This document shows positions 51,689-61,693 of a stretch of DNA of 64,000 nucleotides, piece by piece. This DNA comes from Rheinheimera sp. SA_1 (lineage in GTDB: Bacteria > Pseudomonadota > Gammaproteobacteria > Enterobacterales > Alteromonadaceae). The stretch covers positions 248,001 to 312,000 of the forward strand of contig NZ_LXWK01000018.1 in NCBI RefSeq assembly GCF_001669775.1. The letters are read 5' to 3'. The stretch's first letter is position 1, and each line of letters opens with the position of its first letter. The translations under genes were made by a program, and so were the position numbers. The notes under the pieces were generated by a model that was not told the origin of the DNA, made no database searches, and worked only from the letters and a program-made list of their open reading frames with translations.

Positions 51689-51876
51689 ACTTGTATATTT
51701 GCACGATTCAAAACGACCGACACCACAAATAAAACTTTGCCGAATCGTCTCACAAAGACGTTTTTTCAATAATTTAACCATCAAACCACCATGCGCCATC
51801 CCCATGGCGCAAAGGCGCTGCGCTCTACCCCCGCTTCGGATAACCAAACTGATATGAAAACCATGCAAATTTTTTG

Positions 51877-51931
51877 TTGACGGCTAAAAACCTATCTACT
51901 ACATTTGTAGAAATGAAAACTACAAACGTAG
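51877..51931 (+). promoter_or_regulatory. Promoter with two BlaI/MecI-type operators
   Basis: The promoter is TTGACG (51877-51882), 17 nt, TACATT (51900-51905). The operators CTACATTTGTAG (51899-51910) and CTACAAACGTAG (51920-51931) lie 21 bp apart, two helical turns. The first contains an exact TACA-N2-TGTA core, the consensus for BlaI/MecI repressors, and covers the -10 element. The second has one mismatch. Auto-repression of the operon follows. Confidence 0.8.
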
Positions 51932-51945
51932 TAATAGGAAAAACC

Positions 51946-52317
51946 ATGAAGCTCAGCGAATTCGAACTTGATGTGATGCAACTACTTTGGCAACACGAAC
52001 CTTGCACAGCAGCACAGCTGCATGAACGTTTGTCGCAAAGTAAAAAAGTAGCATACACCACGGTGAAAACCATCGTCGATCGTCTTGAACAAAAAGGGGC
52101 AGTTGCCCGCGCCGGCCAGCAAGGCAAATCGATTATTTATCGTTCCTGTGTGGACCAAAGTACGTTGTCAGATCAAGCGACGCCGGGGTTTATGCAAAGA
52201 TTCTTTGGTGGTGATTCAAGAAGCTTAATCGCTCACTTTATTAAGCAGGAAGAGCTAAACGAAGATGATATTGCATATTTGCAAAGTTTATTAAAAGACA
52301 AAAAACAAGCGAAGTAG
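51946..52317 (+). CDS. BlaI/MecI-family transcriptional repressor
   Basis: 123 residues from the ATG at 51946, with AGGAAAAACC upstream. The winged helix is LSEFELDVMQLLWQHEPCTA AQLHERLSQSKKVAYTTVKT IVDRLEQKGAVAR, the Penicillinase_R domain. The C-terminal helices dimerise. In the family, a partner M56 protease cleaves the repressor or triggers its cleavage; the protease gene follows nine bases downstream. The gene is not linked to a beta-lactamase here. Confidence 0.9.
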   Translation: MKLSEFELDVMQLLWQHEPCTAAQLHERLSQSKKVAYTTVKTIVDRLEQKGAVARAGQQGKSIIYRSCVDQSTLSDQATPGFMQRFFGGDSRSLIAHFIKQEELNEDDIAYLQSLLKDKKQAK

Positions 52318-52326
52318 GAAAATATC

Positions 52327-53949
52327 ATGATGGATTATTTAATGACCTGCACCGCCATTAGTATCAGTGCATGGCTTACCAGTATCTTTTTAAAAAATGC
52401 ACCGGCCAGAATAAGTTTCTATCTGCTGATGTTTGCCCTCGTCAGTTGGTTTATACCGTGGCAGCTTGTGCCTGATACTTTTACTAGCAAAGTGCAGGTT
52501 GATGCATGGTTCGACATGACACCTGTCAATCTGCAGAGTCCGGTGCTCACGGCACAAGACCAAAGGGGCGCCCAGCAACTGCTGGTTACTCAGCAGCCGT
52601 GGTATCAGCAGTTCACCTGGGGACATCTGCTTATGGTAGTTTTTGTGGTGGGGATTGCACTATTTTTGCTGCGGCTGCAAAAGTATCTGGCGACGATTAA
52701 CATGCTGAATAAAAACGCCATTCATAGCAAAAACCTCACTCCGGCAGGTCGGGCATATCCGGTGAAAGTGACACAACTAAACACGCCAGCCATCGCCACC
52801 GGTTTATTCAAACCCACCATCTGGATTGACGCCAATCTGCTGCAACGTCCTGAATTAGACTCAGTGTTATTGCACGAAACAACCCATATCAGGCAGGGCG
52901 ATATCATTTGGTTATGGCTGATTTGTCTGACCGAAAGTCTGTTCTGGTGGAATCCAATCTGCCGGCTGCTTTCTGCGAAAGCCAGGCAAGTGTTAGAACT
53001 TAGTTGTGATGAAAGTTGCTTTAAACAGTTACAACAAAAATACCAGTTTGATTTGGCCAGCTTATTATTAAAACCTTTGGCTGGTTCATCAAAACAATCT
53101 TTGGCTGGGTCGCCGATATTAAATATCGTCAACAGCAAAGATTTTAATATGCAACGAGTGAAAATGTTAAACAAGGAGAAAGTTATGAAGATAAAACATC
53201 TGGTGATATTAATGGCAGCAGTATCCGTCAGTGCTGTTGCTGCGGTGCAATTTAGCGATACTAAAACAGCAGATCCGGTCACCCAGACCGCACCATCAGC
53301 AAACAAAACAAATTTAAGCGAAGCATTTAACACGCAGCAGACAGCGTTATTACAGGCTGCAGCCAAAGCAAAAAGTGACGATCCAGCTGATTTAAAGCAG
53401 GTTGCAGCCAATATCCATGCCTGGCAGAACAATCGTACTGAGCTGACCTTGCGTGAAGAACAAACAATGAAGCTGCAAGCTTTTACGTTGCTGGCGCATG
53501 TGCAACATAAGCTTGGGCAGTTTCAGGACGTGATCACCACGTTTGAAGCATGGTACCCGGCAGGCAGTGACGTACCATACTTCCTTAGAAACTTCACCGC
53601 CATTACTTATCTGAAGTTGAATAATCCGGATCTGGCACTGAAAGAGCTCGCAATTCTGCAGCAAGCTATCGGTGAAGATATTCGTCCTGGTTCACTTTAT
53701 ATGCTGGCACTGGCTTATGCAGAAAAAGCCGATTATACCGGGGCGCTGAAGACGCTGTCCCACCCTAACGTGCTCGATAATCAGCCAACCAAGATGTTGA
53801 AATACTACATCTACAGTCAGCAAAACAATGTGCAACAGCGTGACTTGGTGAAAGCGACGTTGCCAAAAGACATCGCCAGCAAACCGGCAATTATGCCTGG
53901 AGTTGACCTCCCTGGTTCACCGCTGCTGCAATTGCTATCTACTACGTAA
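52327..53949 (+). CDS. M56-family (BlaR1-like) membrane metallopeptidase with helical-repeat C-terminal domain
   Basis: 540 residues. Membrane helices lie near 10-48, 100-117, 193-215 and 290-310. The zinc motif HETTH is at about 183-187, and the third ligand is probably the Glu in VLELSCDESCF, as in BlaR1/MecR1. Where those sensors carry a penicillin-binding domain, this protein has a periplasmic region of about 230 residues made of paired helices (TLREEQTMKLQAFTLLAHVQ, DVPYFLRNFTAITYLKLNNP) that look like TPR units. It therefore should sense something other than a beta-lactam, or act as a protein-binding scaffold. The operon partner is the BlaI-type repressor. Confidence 0.85.
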   Translation: MMDYLMTCTAISISAWLTSIFLKNAPARISFYLLMFALVSWFIPWQLVPDTFTSKVQVDAWFDMTPVNLQSPVLTAQDQRGAQQLLVTQQPWYQQFTWGHLLMVVFVVGIALFLLRLQKYLATINMLNKNAIHSKNLTPAGRAYPVKVTQLNTPAIATGLFKPTIWIDANLLQRPELDSVLLHETTHIRQGDIIWLWLICLTESLFWWNPICRLLSAKARQVLELSCDESCFKQLQQKYQFDLASLLLKPLAGSSKQSLAGSPILNIVNSKDFNMQRVKMLNKEKVMKIKHLVILMAAVSVSAVAAVQFSDTKTADPVTQTAPSANKTNLSEAFNTQQTALLQAAAKAKSDDPADLKQVAANIHAWQNNRTELTLREEQTMKLQAFTLLAHVQHKLGQFQDVITTFEAWYPAGSDVPYFLRNFTAITYLKLNNPDLALKELAILQQAIGEDIRPGSLYMLALAYAEKADYTGALKTLSHPNVLDNQPTKMLKYYIYSQQNNVQQRDLVKATLPKDIASKPAIMPGVDLPGSPLLQLLSTT

Positions 53950-54552: not shown

Positions 54553-54966
54553 ACTGCACCTATTCTGGTTGCATCAATAACTGTGTTTAACACAGCGACA
54601 ACTGCTGCGCTGCTGACCAACATAGCATTGGGTGAACCACAGGCGCCAATATTTGCCTGATCACGGCTGGGTGATAGGGGAAATCCAAAACCCAACTCCA
54701 ACCTTAATTCCAGCAAGACAAGTGCTGCATGAGAAATCCTCAAGCAGAATTCCAGCTTATTCATTTTTCTTCATGGTCGCGTCGGCGTATAAAGCTCAGT
54801 AAGCAGCGACATTCAGACGTATAGACTTCCAAAGCAATTGAATGAAACGAAGCTCAGACTAAATGCTGCAGTAAAAGCTGCAAAGCACTATTGGTAACAC
54901 AAGGCAAGACGAGGCAGAAAAAGCAAGCATTGCAGTTTTGCCGCCAACATTGGGGAGCGGATCACC
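54553..54966 (+). promoter_or_regulatory. MesX-MesD upstream region with tandem MetJ-like boxes
   Basis: About 414 bp with no convincing gene. AGACGTAT (54815-54822) and AGACTTCC (54823-54830) are immediately adjacent 8-mers matching the met box AGACGTCT at seven and six of eight positions. The 8-mer before them matches at four. A possible -35 (TTGAAT at 54838-54843) lies just downstream. MetJ binds tandem met boxes with S-adenosylmethionine, so the operon may be repressed when methionine is plentiful. The rest of the region shows nothing clear. Confidence 0.6.
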
Positions 54967-55944
54967 ATGAAAACTGATTTCACATTTTCGATTAAAAGTA
55001 TTTGTTTTGACGAGCATTATTCGCCGTCCGACAAAACGCGGCTGACCACCAACTTTGCCAATTTGGCGCGAGGCGACAGCCGCCAACAGAATCTGCGCAA
55101 TACCCTGAAGATGATTAACGATCGCTTTAACTCGCTGGCGCATTGGGACAACCCGACAGGCGATCGGTATGCGGTTGAACTTGAGATCGTTTCGGTGGAT
55201 ATCAATATCAAAAACGCTGGCAACGCCTTTCCGTCGATTGAAGTATTAAAAACCAACATCATTGACCGGCACACCCAGGAGCGATTTGACGGCCTGGTAG
55301 GGAATAACTTTTCGTCCTACGTCCGGGACTATGATTTCAGCGTGTTGCTGTTAGAACACAATAAAAATCAACAGCAATTTAGTATTCCGGATAATTTTGG
55401 TGAGCTGCATGGCCGGTTATTCCAGCATTTCGTCAACTCAGCAGCCTACAAAACTAACTTCAAAAAACTGCCGGTGATCTGCCTTAGTGTGTCCGATAAC
55501 AAAATCTATCAGCGCTCTGCCAATCACCATCCGGTGCTGGGGATTGAATACCTGGCGAATGAGTCGTCGTTGACGGAGCAGTATTTCAGCAAAATGGGGT
55601 TAAAGGTTCGTTACTTTATGCCCGAGAGTTGTGTCGCGCCGTTGGCCTTTTATTTCTTTGGCGATTTGCTGAATGATTACAGCAATCTGGAGCTGATCAG
55701 CACCATCAGCACCATGGAAACATTCCAAAAAATCTACCGGCCGGAAATTTATAATGCCCATGCTGTGGCGGGGCTGCGCTACCAGCCTGATTTAAAAAGC
55801 CAGCAACATTCACTGACCAAAATTGTGTATGACCGGGAAGAACGGAGCAAGCTGGCAATTTTGCAGGGTAAATTTGCCGAGGAACAATTTATCAAACCTT
55901 ATCAAAGCTTGCTTGAACAGTGGTCGGCCACTTACGCCCGCTAA
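54967..55944 (+). CDS. mesX: DUF1852 protein, accessory factor of MesD methionine synthase
   Basis: 325 residues, full length for DUF1852. Recognisable parts are KSICFDEHYSPSDKTRLTTN near the N-terminus, NLARGDSRQQNLRNTLKMIN, HPVLGIEYLANESSLTEQYF and LEQWSATYAR at the end. DUF1852 proteins are encoded next to core methionine synthases of the MesD family and were shown to be needed for MesD activity, together with oxygen. The biochemical role (perhaps making or delivering the methyl donor) is not known. No signal peptide. The MesD gene follows 57 nt downstream. The ATG is preceded by GGAGCGG. Confidence 0.9.
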   Translation: MKTDFTFSIKSICFDEHYSPSDKTRLTTNFANLARGDSRQQNLRNTLKMINDRFNSLAHWDNPTGDRYAVELEIVSVDINIKNAGNAFPSIEVLKTNIIDRHTQERFDGLVGNNFSSYVRDYDFSVLLLEHNKNQQQFSIPDNFGELHGRLFQHFVNSAAYKTNFKKLPVICLSVSDNKIYQRSANHHPVLGIEYLANESSLTEQYFSKMGLKVRYFMPESCVAPLAFYFFGDLLNDYSNLELISTISTMETFQKIYRPEIYNAHAVAGLRYQPDLKSQQHSLTKIVYDREERSKLAILQGKFAEEQFIKPYQSLLEQWSATYAR

Positions 55945-56001
55945 TTCAAATAACAGTTCATACAAGAATCCAAACAACATTCTATTAAAATTCAGCGCGG
56001 T

Positions 56002-57057
56002 ATGATGATGAATACGAAGACAAAAAAACTATTACCTACCTCCACTGCCGGCAGTTTACCCAAGCCACTCTGGCTAGCAGAGCCCGAAACCCTGTGGTCG
56101 CCGTGGAAACTCCAAGGCGAAGAACTGACCGATGGCAAAAATGATGCACTGCGCATCGCCATGCAAGAGCAACAACTGGCAGGGATTGATATCGTCAGTG
56201 ATGGTGAGCAAACCCGGCAGCACTTCGTCACCACATTTATTGAGCACTTAAACGGGGTCGACTTTAGCAAACGCCAGACCGTACGGATTCGGGATCGCTA
56301 CGACGCCAGCGTGCCAACAGTCGTTGGGCCAGTCTCCAGGACCAAACCGGTGTTTGTCGAAGATGCGATGTTTTTGCGCCAGCAAACCGATAAGCCAATT
56401 AAATGGGCGCTGCCTGGCCCGATGACGATGATCGATACCTTGTACGACGATCATTATAAAAGCCGGAAAACGCTGGCCTTCGAATTTGCCAAAATCCTCA
56501 ATGAAGAAGCCAAAGAATTAGAAGCCGCCGGGGTTGATATCATCCAGTTTGATGAACCAGCTTTTAATGTGTTTTTTGACGAAGTAAACGATTGGGGCAT
56601 CGCGGCGTTAGAGCGCGCTATTGAAGGCCTGAAATGTGAAACCGCCGTGCATATTTGTTATGGCTACGGCATCAAAGCCAATACCGAATGGAAGAAAACG
56701 CTGGGGTCAGAGTGGCGGCAATATGAAGCCGTGTTCCCGAAACTGCAAAAATCCGCCATTGATATTATTTCGTTGGAATGCCATAACTCGCAGGTGCCGC
56801 TGGAACTGCTGGAATTGATCCGGGGTAAAAAAGTGATGGTGGGCGCTATTGATGTGGCCAGCAATGTCATTGAAACGCCTGACGAAGTGGCCGCGACGCT
56901 GCGTAAAGCGCTGCAGTTTGTTGATGCCGACAAGCTATATCCTTGCACCAACTGCGGGATGGCGCCGCTGTCACGCCAGGTGGCCAGAGACAAGCTGAAG
57001 GCGCTTAATGCCGGTGCAGAAATCGTCCGGCAAGAACTGTTGGCAGCTGCCAGATAG
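56002..57057 (+). CDS. mesD: Core methionine synthase (MesD, MetE C-terminal-domain-like)
   Basis: 351 residues matching only the catalytic half of MetE; the folate-binding N-terminal half is absent. The zinc ligands are visible: His and Cys in AVHICYGYG (about 217 and 219), Glu in IISLECHNS (259) and Cys in CTNCGMAPLSR (about 318). WALPGPMTMIDTLYDDHYKS and IIQFDEPAFN bind substrate. It methylates homocysteine to methionine. MesD enzymes work without methylfolate and cobalamin but need the DUF1852 partner and oxygen. The methyl donor is unknown. Three ATG codons in a row open the frame; the exact start is uncertain by one or two codons. Confidence 0.92.
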   Translation: MMMNTKTKKLLPTSTAGSLPKPLWLAEPETLWSPWKLQGEELTDGKNDALRIAMQEQQLAGIDIVSDGEQTRQHFVTTFIEHLNGVDFSKRQTVRIRDRYDASVPTVVGPVSRTKPVFVEDAMFLRQQTDKPIKWALPGPMTMIDTLYDDHYKSRKTLAFEFAKILNEEAKELEAAGVDIIQFDEPAFNVFFDEVNDWGIAALERAIEGLKCETAVHICYGYGIKANTEWKKTLGSEWRQYEAVFPKLQKSAIDIISLECHNSQVPLELLELIRGKKVMVGAIDVASNVIETPDEVAATLRKALQFVDADKLYPCTNCGMAPLSRQVARDKLKALNAGAEIVRQELLAAAR

Positions 57058-57274: not shown

Positions 57275-58105
57275 ATGAATGTCATCGAATTTGCACATAC
57301 CCACCTTGCCAGCGTTTTGGCATTAGCCGCTACCGGTGTCTTCGCCGGCCTGCTGGCCGGTTTATTGGGCGTCGGTGGCGGAATCGTCATCGTACCGGTA
57401 CTGTTTTTTCTGTTCCAAAGTTTTGGCGTATCCACCGATTCCGCCATGCTGGTTGCCACCGCCACGTCACTGGCCACCATGATCCCAACCTCGCTCAGTT
57501 CCATTCGTTCGCACCGGCAACAAGGTAATGTTGATTTTGGCTTACTACAACGCTGGTCGCCCTTTATTGTCGCTGGTGTGTTGGCCGGAAGCTGGTTAGT
57601 AACGCGAATAGACGGCAACTGGTTAACGCTGCTATTTGGCGTGATTGCGCTGTTATCTGCACTCAATATGCTGTTTCGAACTGGCAAACCGGCGCTGTTT
57701 CCACAACTGCCCGGGAAGTCAGCGCAGCGCTTGATGGGCAGCGGCATTGGTTTCTTTAGTTCCATGGTCGGGATTGGTGGCGGTACCATTTCGGTGCCAT
57801 TACTGACGCTTTACAACTACCCGGCACATAAAGCCGTTGGCACCGCGTCAGCCATCGGCTTGCTGATTGCGCTGCCAGGTGCACTCACGATGTTAGTGCT
57901 CGGCAACACCCCAAACGACGCGCCCGTCGGCACTGTTGGTCTGGTTAATCTGCTGGGGTTTTGTTGTATCGTGCCACTCACCGTCTTGTTCGCACCGGTC
58001 GGCGCCGCCCTGTCCGCCCGGTTGGATGCAGTTAAACTGAAAAAAATCTTCGCGATTGTGTTGCTGTGCACTGGCGGACGAATGTTAGGGCAGTTGTTGT
58101 TTTAG
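57275..58105 (+). CDS. TauE/SafE-family sulfite exporter-like membrane protein
   Basis: 276 residues with eight hydrophobic segments in two repeats. The signature GLLAGLLGVGGGIVIVPVLF opens the first repeat and GIGFFSSMVGIGGGTISVPL the second. Family members move sulfite, sulfoacetate or other organosulfonates out of, or into, the cell. It lies 218 nt after mesD on the same strand, perhaps a separate unit. Its presence beside a sulfur amino-acid gene pair is suggestive but not proof of a link. Confidence 0.88.
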   Translation: MNVIEFAHTHLASVLALAATGVFAGLLAGLLGVGGGIVIVPVLFFLFQSFGVSTDSAMLVATATSLATMIPTSLSSIRSHRQQGNVDFGLLQRWSPFIVAGVLAGSWLVTRIDGNWLTLLFGVIALLSALNMLFRTGKPALFPQLPGKSAQRLMGSGIGFFSSMVGIGGGTISVPLLTLYNYPAHKAVGTASAIGLLIALPGALTMLVLGNTPNDAPVGTVGLVNLLGFCCIVPLTVLFAPVGAALSARLDAVKLKKIFAIVLLCTGGRMLGQLLF

Positions 58106-59952: not shown

Positions 59953-60624
59953 TTATTGATTTGATTTTTCTTTGCCATGCTTTGGTGAGCGCGGGCCATA
60001 TAACAAACCGTTGCGCGCTTCTGGCGATAACAAACGGGCGGACGCTATGCCAGCAATCTCAAAGCCGGTGTCCAAAGCGGTTTCCAGAATCTGCGTCACT
60101 GCCGCTTCGACCAACATCCCGACGACACCAAAGCCGTTGTTATTATTGTTTTGTTCGCTGCTGGCAGCACGGGCACTGCCTTGCCATAAGATTTCATTGG
60201 TTTTGTTGTCAACGAGTTTCGCCTGCACCACCACTACAGTATCACTGGAGAGTACGGCGTAAGAGGTGCCGTACTGCTGCACTTCGATATACATCACCGC
60301 ATCCGCACCAAAGATCTCATGGAGCTTCTTTGCAGAAACCGCATGGATGTCTTCGGCAACAGTCAGACCGTTGTTTTTAAAGGTTTCATCCACCAGCGCC
60401 ACCGGAAACACATAATAACCAGCTTCCGCCAGCGGCACTGTCACATTCGCTAACACCCCATAAGGCGCAATGACTTCAGTGGTATGGTTGATCGGCGGCA
60501 ACACCAAAATTGACTTTGGATTGCTCTGCTTAAAAGCGGTGTAATCCATGCCGGTTGGAACCGTTGCACAACCGGTCAGAATGATGGCTATCGCTAAAGC
60601 GGCAAATAATTGAATGTTTTTCAT
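59953..60624 (-). CDS. GNA1162/DUF799-family lipoprotein
   Basis: 223 residues. A lipobox (IAIILTGCATVP) makes it a lipoprotein. The DUF799 core is visible: SILVLPPINHTTEVIAPYGV, FPVALVDETFKNNGLTVAED, and WQGSARAASSEQNNNN. The neisserial homologue GNA1162 is a surface vaccine antigen with a fold like TolB or CsgG-associated partners. The ATG overlaps the end of the DUF4810 gene by four bases, so it is the third gene of a coupled operon. Confidence 0.9.
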   Translation of the reverse strand: MKNIQLFAALAIAIILTGCATVPTGMDYTAFKQSNPKSILVLPPINHTTEVIAPYGVLANVTVPLAEAGYYVFPVALVDETFKNNGLTVAEDIHAVSAKKLHEIFGADAVMYIEVQQYGTSYAVLSSDTVVVVQAKLVDNKTNEILWQGSARAASSEQNNNNNGFGVVGMLVEAAVTQILETALDTGFEIAGIASARLLSPEARNGLLYGPRSPKHGKEKSNQ

Positions 60625-60986
60625 GATTTACCTGCTTTCGCATTTTTCAGTAAAAAGTCGATAAATTGTGCCGACTCCGGATACAGCGCTTTTTCTTTGC
60701 GTAAATAAGCAACACCCGTCTCCATCTGACCACTTTCAATATACAAGTAGCCTAAGTGAGCATTCAGACCCGGACCCACTGGCAGATTTTTCGCAGAACT
60801 CTTAGCGATGGTTTTTTCCAGCGCTGCAATTTCCTCAGTCACCGACGAATCTTCGTTTTTAAAGTGCGCGTAGACAGCATCTTGATAAGCGCCGTAATGA
60901 TAGAGCGGCTTGGTTGTTTGGCAGCCGCTTAGCGTTGCCACGGCCACGACCACTGCTAAAAATTTTAGCCTCATCACCATTGGCAT
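60621..60986 (-). CDS. DUF4810-family small lipoprotein
   Basis: About 120 residues; ATG codons at 60986, 60980 and 60974 are possible starts (an in-frame start at 61013 would overlap the upstream gene). A lipobox (VAVATLSGCQTT) and the family core YHYGAYQDAVYAHFKNED and LNAHLGYLYIESGQMETGVA (TPR-like) are present. Its 3' end overlaps the GNA1162-type gene by four bases. It is part of a conserved three-lipoprotein operon. Confidence 0.87.
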   Translation of the reverse strand: MPMVMRLKFLAVVVAVATLSGCQTTKPLYHYGAYQDAVYAHFKNEDSSVTEEIAALEKTIAKSSAKNLPVGPGLNAHLGYLYIESGQMETGVAYLRKEKALYPESAQFIDFLLKNAKAGKS

Positions 60987-60997
60987 CAAAGAGGGTC

Positions 60998-61693
60998 TCA
61001 CTGCGGTTGCCATTGGTTATTTTGGATGCCTTCCACCAGTTTGTTTACTGCTTCGCGCATGGCCAAATCTAACACTTTACCGTTGAGGGTAGCGTCATAG
61101 CTGGCAGTGCCGCCAAAACCAATCACTTCACGATTTTCCAGACTAAATTCACCGGCGCCCATTACGGAGAACACCACAGCTGAGGTTTCTACATCCACAA
61201 TATTTAACGCAACTTTGGCATATGCCACTTGCTCTTTGCCTTTGCCGAGCAGACCAAACAATTGTTTGTCGCCGGTTTGTTTACGGCCAAATTCAGTGAC
61301 ATCACCGGTCACCACATATTTAGCCCCAATTACTTGTTGATTGGCGCCGGCAAACTGCGCTTCTTGTGCTAATTCGGCCATATTGGCGCGGTCCATCACC
61401 AAAAAACGATTGGTTTGTTGTAAGTGGGTCAACAGAATGGTTTTGGCTTGTGACCCCAGCTGGTCGGTTTCAGCGTTAAAAATACCATTTTGGAAGTTGG
61501 AGCGGTTTTGGAATTTGCCAACCACCAGTTTGCTTTTTGGGCCTTGGTAAGCCTGATAGCTGGCGTTTACTTTTGGCGCTTCAATAGTGCGGGACGATTC
61601 ATGAGCACTACAACCAGCCAACACAATCAGGGGCAGTAACAATGCGAATTTGCGGGATAATTTGAGGGGTAATTTATGGAACGTACTTTTCAT
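60998..61693 (-). CDS. CsgG/HfaB-family lipoprotein
   Basis: 231 residues with a lipobox (LIVLAGCSAHES). The CsgG-like body: KLVVGKFQNRSNFQNGIFNA, LLTHLQQTNRFLVMDRANM, YVVTGDVTEFGRKQTGDKQL and DLAMREAVNKLVEGIQNNQW at the end. CsgG itself forms the outer-membrane curli pore, but this protein is shorter and lacks the typical pore hairpins as far as I can see. It is the first gene of a three-lipoprotein operon with DUF4810 and GNA1162 families. The complex is likely envelope-associated, function unknown. Confidence 0.88.
   Translation of the reverse strand: MKSTFHKLPLKLSRKFALLLPLIVLAGCSAHESSRTIEAPKVNASYQAYQGPKSKLVVGKFQNRSNFQNGIFNAETDQLGSQAKTILLTHLQQTNRFLVMDRANMAELAQEAQFAGANQQVIGAKYVVTGDVTEFGRKQTGDKQLFGLLGKGKEQVAYAKVALNIVDVETSAVVFSVMGAGEFSLENREVIGFGGTASYDATLNGKVLDLAMREAVNKLVEGIQNNQWQPQ

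Follow-up and report, generated by a model that had tools for sequence, protein, structure and literature searches.

A MesX-MesD operon in Rheinheimera, very probably for methionine synthesis without folate or vitamin B12, and its genomic context

Introduction

Can two adjacent genes from Rheinheimera make methionine with neither folate nor vitamin B12, and if so, what supplies the methyl group? The genes, mesX and mesD, lie in a 64-kb stretch of DNA (hereafter "the window," meaning the whole stretch that we analyzed). Making methionine with neither cofactor bears on bacterial nutrition. The MesX-MesD system was published in 2021 (PMC7857596, by Price and colleagues), and the same gene pair had appeared earlier under other names: as the "MetE1 group" downstream of pfam08908 in 2011 (PMC3228920) and as "PF08908-metE2" in 2014 (PMC4239095). 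According to the 2021 paper, the synthase needs MesX and oxygen and is independent of MetF and of cobalamin; mesXD from Sphingomonas koreensis allows Escherichia coli to make methionine without methylfolate or cobalamin, and only if oxygen is present. The 2021 description did not include the methyl donor, and we found no later answer in the literature that we searched.

The operon in the window is one more member of a system that is already known in kind, and the added value lies in its context. We describe a MetJ-type site upstream, a transporter gene that recurs beside the operon, and a reason for caution in counting MetF.

Results

The gene pair encodes MesX and a core methionine synthase

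A sequence-only reading of this DNA had proposed a DUF1852 gene and a MetE-like gene that are 57 nt apart, and we found both open reading frames (ORFs) exactly there. mesX (54967..55944, + strand) encodes 325 amino acids and mesD (56002..57057, + strand) encodes 351; each begins with ATG, and 57 nt separate them. The assignment of the first gene to DUF1852 held up: its product matches PF08908, which Pfam now names MesX ("putative oxygenase MesX"), over the whole profile (587 bits, E = 8.9e-177). The product of the second gene matches the methionine synthase model NF006589 (690 bits; the cut-off is 392), the catalytic domain Meth_synt_2 (PF01717, 132 bits), and the protein in PDB entry 3RPD (685 bits), while two full-length MetE models give 116 and 110 bits against cut-offs of 541 and 930. 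For matches with such scores, chance can be excluded.

MesD corresponds to the catalytic half of MetE only. The absence of the folate-binding half, as originally proposed, was upheld: PF08267 reaches 19.5 bits (the cut-off is 27), and even this match lies inside the catalytic domain, which is the sole above-cut-off domain in the 351 amino acids. The preceding gene is mesX. MetE shares the zinc- and homocysteine-binding catalytic domain with MesD but carries its own folate-binding N-terminal half and needs methylfolate, whereas MesD lacks that half and belongs to a separate clade.

By motif position, the zinc ligands of MesD are H217, C219, E259, and C318, so the His, Cys, Glu, and Cys that had been called intact are all in place. 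The homocysteine-binding residues, also by motif position, are S18, E69, and D184. MesD aligns with 342 residues of 3RPD without a gap, and these three residues fall at chain positions 25, 76, and 191. Price and colleagues name Ser22, Glu73, and Asp188 as substrate residues (PMC7857596). The 3RPD numbering appears to run 3 behind the chain sequence, because all three residues then match. 3RPD is described as a B12-independent methionine synthase and is the MesD structure that Price and colleagues cite; we saw no functional difference between it and the MesD of the window.

We built a maximum-likelihood tree of 29 proteins: MesD from the window, 20 other proteins encoded next to mesX, four MetE catalytic domains, and four short MetE-like proteins (374 amino acids). 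The 21 MesD proteins lie together to one side of a branch (support 96/86), and the MetE domains and the short MetE-like proteins each form their own group (both 100/100). The tree thus separates MesD from MetE and from the short MetE-like proteins that are not MesD; grouping with full-length MetE or with a non-synthase MetE-like protein was what the sequence-only reading had named as evidence against it. Two sequences were left out of the tree: a false row with a branch length of 10 (ORF L037:11753-12847) and a long row, L131, which is a real protein encoded next to mesX (PF01717, 111 bits). Across the catalytic domain, MesD is 24–26% identical to four MetE proteins from the family.

Together, the profile matches (PF08908 and NF006589) and the MesD clade confirm the identity of the operon. 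The operon is typical of the system described in 2021 and has the same families, adjacency, catalytic residues, and folate-less architecture as MesD-MesX of Acinetobacter baylyi and S. koreensis (PMC7857596). This two-gene unit very probably makes methionine by using oxygen and neither folate nor vitamin B12.

Methionine synthesis genes in the genome and the family

The genome (5.16 Mb in 22 contigs, estimated to be 100% complete) has one match to MesX, whose nearest named relative is from Rheinheimera riviphila (92% identical). It has one match to Meth_synt_2, which is MesD, so there is no MetE. A MetH activation domain is found in an ORF of 876 amino acids. By eye, the preceding ORF of 359 amino acids looks like a split MetH's homocysteine half, and the next ORF looks like metA. 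MesD is the genome's only synthase of the MetE/MesD type, and the other synthase that we found is a split MetH of the cobalamin type.

Of 118 genomes from the family, 51 have MesX, and exactly these 51 have MesD. metE is present in 3 of the 51 genomes with mesX and in 23 of the 67 genomes without it (Fisher's p = 2e-4, ignoring kinship), the pattern to be anticipated if MesXD stands in for MetE. In a separate study, N2O, which poisons MetH, was tolerated by two isolates that carry MesD: Acinetobacter sp. Root1280 and Rhizobium sp. Root491 (PMC13059711).

In the Rheinheimera genome, we found no match to MTHFR (MetF) at E = 0.001. There is a distant MTHFR-like protein of about 320 amino acids (G000:C1:1443489-1444448, or L095:1501-2460). 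Three of these MetF-like proteins were scanned and scored 16.5–22.3 bits, and the Pfam cut-off is 24. The MetF-like protein is present in 37 of the 118 genomes: 67 genomes have MetF only, 35 have the MetF-like protein only, two have both, and 14 have neither. The two types are nearly exclusive (Fisher's p = 3e-16, again ignoring kinship). In this family, the MetF-like protein appears to take the place of MetF, and the absence of MetF from the Rheinheimera genome is probably only apparent. In 2011, metF2 was predicted in the same situation (PMC3228920), as was metF-II in 2014 (PMC4239095). The MetF-like protein is probably the same as these, to judge by the shared situation.

We therefore rejected the idea that this bacterium has no methylfolate for want of MetF: with a distant MetF-like protein present, a missing MetF does not show that methylfolate is missing. 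Also, six genomes (G021, G039, G083, G092, G101, and G109) have MetE without a full-length MetF. The idea that genomes with mesXD are more often without MetF was not supported either (25 of 51 versus 24 of 67, p = 0.19). Counts of "no MetF" by the standard Pfam model can overstate the lack of methylfolate among organisms with MesXD.

The 14 genomes with neither type of MetF include five with MetH and mesXD, one with MetH and MetE (this genome is 85% complete), and eight without MetH, MetE, or MesX. The five (G035, G049, G050, G085, and G113) have only a truncated relative of MTHFR, in frames of 251–265 amino acids, and are better candidates for methylfolate-free synthesis of methionine. The eight (G010, G026, G028, G059, G070, G072, G102, and G104) are small, at 2.4–2.9 Mb, and gave no match to MetH, MetE, MesX-MesD, or MetF of either type; these bacteria may be auxotrophic or may get to methionine in some other way.

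MesX matches 209 records in a plasmid collection (some of them chromosome-sized), two records in a phage collection, and two viral contigs. At the DNA level, there was no match in an E. coli collection. One genome has fragments of a second, broken MesX (L121 and L122, at G197:C1:2175963-2176446) and an intact copy elsewhere (L120).

Regulation upstream of mesX

We compared 85 loci, with near-duplicates kept: the window, the 80 best matches, and four more that we picked out of our survey of the family. We searched the window for two tandem copies of AGACGTCT, which we take to be the met box consensus, with up to three mismatches. The sole match is at 54815..54830 on the + strand, 137–152 nt before the start of mesX, with the boxes AGACGTAT and AGACTTCC. 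By chance, 0.06 matches were expected, and 5 of 100 shuffles had at least one. The site scores 13/16, which was reached by none of 2,000 shuffles of the region upstream of mesX. The same genome encodes MetJ (G000:C1:771756-772040), so both sequence-level marks of a MetJ regulon, at least two tandem met boxes and a MetJ gene, are present. No sigma-70-like promoter was called beside the site. MetJ probably represses the operon at high levels of S-adenosylmethionine.

A tandem met box scoring at least 12/16 is found in 19 of the 85 loci, as compared to about 0.1 expected; 15 of these 19 loci have a MetR site as well and four do not. MetR-type sites (ATGAA-N5-TTCAT) that score at least 9/10 lie upstream of mesX in 67 of the 85 loci, versus 3.25 expected from shuffles. 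Upstream of mesX in the window, the MetR box is missing: the best score is 7/10, the commonest score in shuffles. The nearest relative (L004) and another locus from the same genus (L089) are like the window in having the tandem met box without the MetR site (7/10), and a third locus from the genus (L090) has neither. In 23 of the 85 loci, a gene from one cluster of LysR-type regulators is no more than four ORFs away from mesX; one member of the cluster scored 191 bits against the MetR model, whose cut-off is 382.

Control by MetJ would be a modest extension of what was known, as the 2014 study, which placed PF08908-metE2 in MetR regulons in agreement with the many MetR-type sites here, also lists metE2 as a genome-specific target of MetJ (PMC4239095). 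In contrast, the 2011 study describes the MetE1 genes as lacking met boxes (PMC3228920), and here 19 of 85 loci, including the window, have a strong tandem match. The MetJ-type operator, the missing MetR box, and the transporter gene described below are additions to the sequence-only reading.

We found no riboswitch between 54000 and 57500 of the window at E values up to 1. When 12 other loci were searched at the gathering threshold, only L119 had one: in this locus, from another class of the phylum, a cobalamin riboswitch (L119:1176-1374, 128 bits) lies directly 5' of mesX-mesD.

Flavin reductases and a transporter beside mesXD

In some lineages, mesXD has a flavin reductase as a neighbor. 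We found one from PF01613 in plasmids of Acinetobacter and Paracoccus and one from PF03358 in a plasmid from the Comamonadaceae; a neighbor of mesXD in Cellvibrio is 69% identical to the Acinetobacter flavin reductase. A flavin reductase is listed in 3 of 10 annotated regions, whose gene tables are incomplete. In Acinetobacter baumannii, vitamin B12 lowers expression of the DUF1852 gene by approximately 8 log2 units; for a flavin reductase gene whose locus number differs by two, the decrease is 2.5 (PMC12892962). The systems of PMC7857596 also have a putative flavin reductase nearby, whereas nothing like the three that we tested lies beside the operon in the window, and just one of the 85 loci has such a gene. 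A general reductase may supply the flavin, or MesX may not use flavin after all.

Downstream of mesD, the window encodes a transporter of the TauE/SafE (TSUP) family, which we propose as an associated component (57275..58105, + strand; PF01925, 178 bits). This gene and the MetJ-type operator distinguish the window from the systems in PMC7857596, whose main text mentions no TauE, transporter, or permease. Nothing in the literature that we searched combines TauE, methionine synthase, and flavin reductase, and within that literature the link between TauE/SafE and mesXD is unreported.

In 39 of the 85 loci, a TauE/SafE gene is found no more than 2.6 kb from mesX. It is upstream and divergent in 24 of them, downstream on the same strand in eight, and downstream and convergent in seven. 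We searched the loci (about 1.18 Mb in total) with a profile built from the mesXD-linked copies and nine further TauE proteins. All 39 of the TauE-like ORFs are within 2.6 kb of mesX, with no further copy elsewhere in these loci. The mesXD-linked copies, along with two from Acinetobacter and one from Cellvibrio, sort into three groups that have diverged from one another, with 15, 24, and 3 proteins (support 96/88, 100/100, and 100/99). Those in the window's group are 73–84% identical to the window's copy, and the upstream group is 33–37% identical. In Acinetobacter and Cellvibrio, the gene order is mesX-mesD-flavin reductase-TauE. TauE is listed in 2 of 10 annotated plasmid regions (the gene tables are incomplete). 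We considered whether TauE was gained beside mesXD several times independently. Repeated gain is not established by the tree: two label changes are required by its starred branches and three occur in the best tree, but one gain with losses could produce them, and several branches are long.

The window's TauE protein has relatives in 89 records of the plasmid collection, and we examined 8 of the 60 that were listed. Two of the eight adjoin mesXD. In five of the other six, a gene of the GGT family is adjacent to TauE or one gene away, and the sixth has an M20 peptidase-like gene nearby. Four of the five GGT-like proteins score below the cut-off of the GGT model, and they might be oxamate-type amidohydrolases, which is an assumption of ours. 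The closest examined relative outside of mesXD, among the matches listed, is 61% identical to the window's copy. One of its neighbors passes a model for allantoate amidohydrolase (540 bits; the cut-off is 479); another is annotated as belonging to the alanine-glyoxylate aminotransferase family and is below the cut-off of every model that it matched; and a GGT-like gene is also nearby. A role with sulfite or organosulfonates, as the name TauE might suggest, is not preferred because TauE is a family label and because the six relatives away from mesXD lie beside GGT-like or M20-like genes.

Proposed mechanism and alternatives

We are confident that a working MesX-MesD operon is the best explanation of the locus as a whole. 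In the mechanism that we propose, MesD, like MetE, would activate homocysteine in the form of a zinc thiolate. MesX would make or carry the methyl group in an oxygen-dependent reaction that probably also depends on reduced flavin, and MesD would receive the methyl group from MesX, with neither methylfolate nor cobalamin being used. We infer that the copy in the window is active, that it uses flavin, and that MetJ binds upstream of it. mesXD may be dispensable, since the genome also encodes MetH and a MetF-like protein.

Across 118 sequences of MesX (down to 60% identity), 86 of the 325 positions are invariant, and these include one cysteine (C172), one histidine (H188), and ten aspartates and glutamates. 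The structure alignment drew on 63 of the 80 best-match loci (L055 was dropped for a stop in the stretch and the others by choice). A fold search with MesX gave no confident match that would point to an oxygenase. Price and colleagues raise the idea that MesX carries the methyl group on a side chain (PMC7857596); if so, then C172 is the natural candidate for the carrier.

A somewhat unlikely alternative is that MesX is a non-heme iron oxygenase instead of a reduced-flavin enzyme, with flavin reductases being incidental or serving to reduce the metal. The requirement for oxygen (PMC7857596) fits this too, and H188 (conserved in 118 of 118 sequences), H148 (117 of 118), and the ten acidic residues are enough for one facial triad. 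However, of the ten histidines, a single one is unchanged in all of the sequences checked, so that a cluster of several histidines would be hard to accommodate, and flavin reductases of two families (PF01613 and PF03358) adjoin mesXD in some lineages. We think it most improbable that MesD instead uses methylfolate (or methyl-cobalamin on the split MetH) and that MesX merely modifies or protects it. Methylfolate is probably available, given MetH and the MetF-like protein, but the folate-binding half is missing from MesD, and the five candidate genomes named above have mesXD with neither MetF nor a MetF-like protein. Furthermore, MetF of S. koreensis mattered less than mesD and mesX did, and mesXD restored the growth of a metF deletion strain of E. 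coli (PMC7857596).

For the transporter, there is a sizable minority chance that TauE/SafE is a passenger, kept by shared gene order and unconnected to methionine synthesis. The gene is absent from 46 of the 85 loci. Within the genus, it is present in the window and L004 only: it is missing from the Rheinheimera loci L010, L015, L028, and L031 and from the same-genus loci L089 and L090. Many loci are from related genera, one gain with losses could account for the tree, and MesXD functions in E. coli with no transporter added (PMC7857596). Against this are the clustering of every TauE-like ORF near mesX, the three arrangements and three diverged, well-supported groups, and the gene order that Acinetobacter and Cellvibrio share. 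On the reading that we prefer, the neighboring TauE/SafE may handle a substrate or by-product of MesX, and its recurrence, along with that of flavin reductases, is a new lead on the source of the methyl group. A more specific version, in which TauE/SafE is a third functional part that exports the two-carbon acid left by keto-acid chemistry of MesX and MesD, is very improbable as a whole, and each of its parts is conjecture: MesX with reduced flavin and oxygen might activate the methyl group of a keto acid (pyruvate would be the simplest); insertion of oxygen might give, for instance, monomethyl oxalate; and MesD might then methylate homocysteine, with TauE/SafE exporting the leftover oxalate or glyoxylate. 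Export of a by-product came to mind because the closest examined relative of TauE outside of mesXD adjoins genes where two-carbon acids could arise.

Other genes in the window

By eye, two other gene sets stand out near the operon. Upstream (51874-53949), a gene resembling a BlaI-type repressor is adjacent to one resembling a BlaR1-type membrane peptidase. At 59953-61693 on the - strand, a run of three small genes looks like a CsgG-type lipoprotein set.
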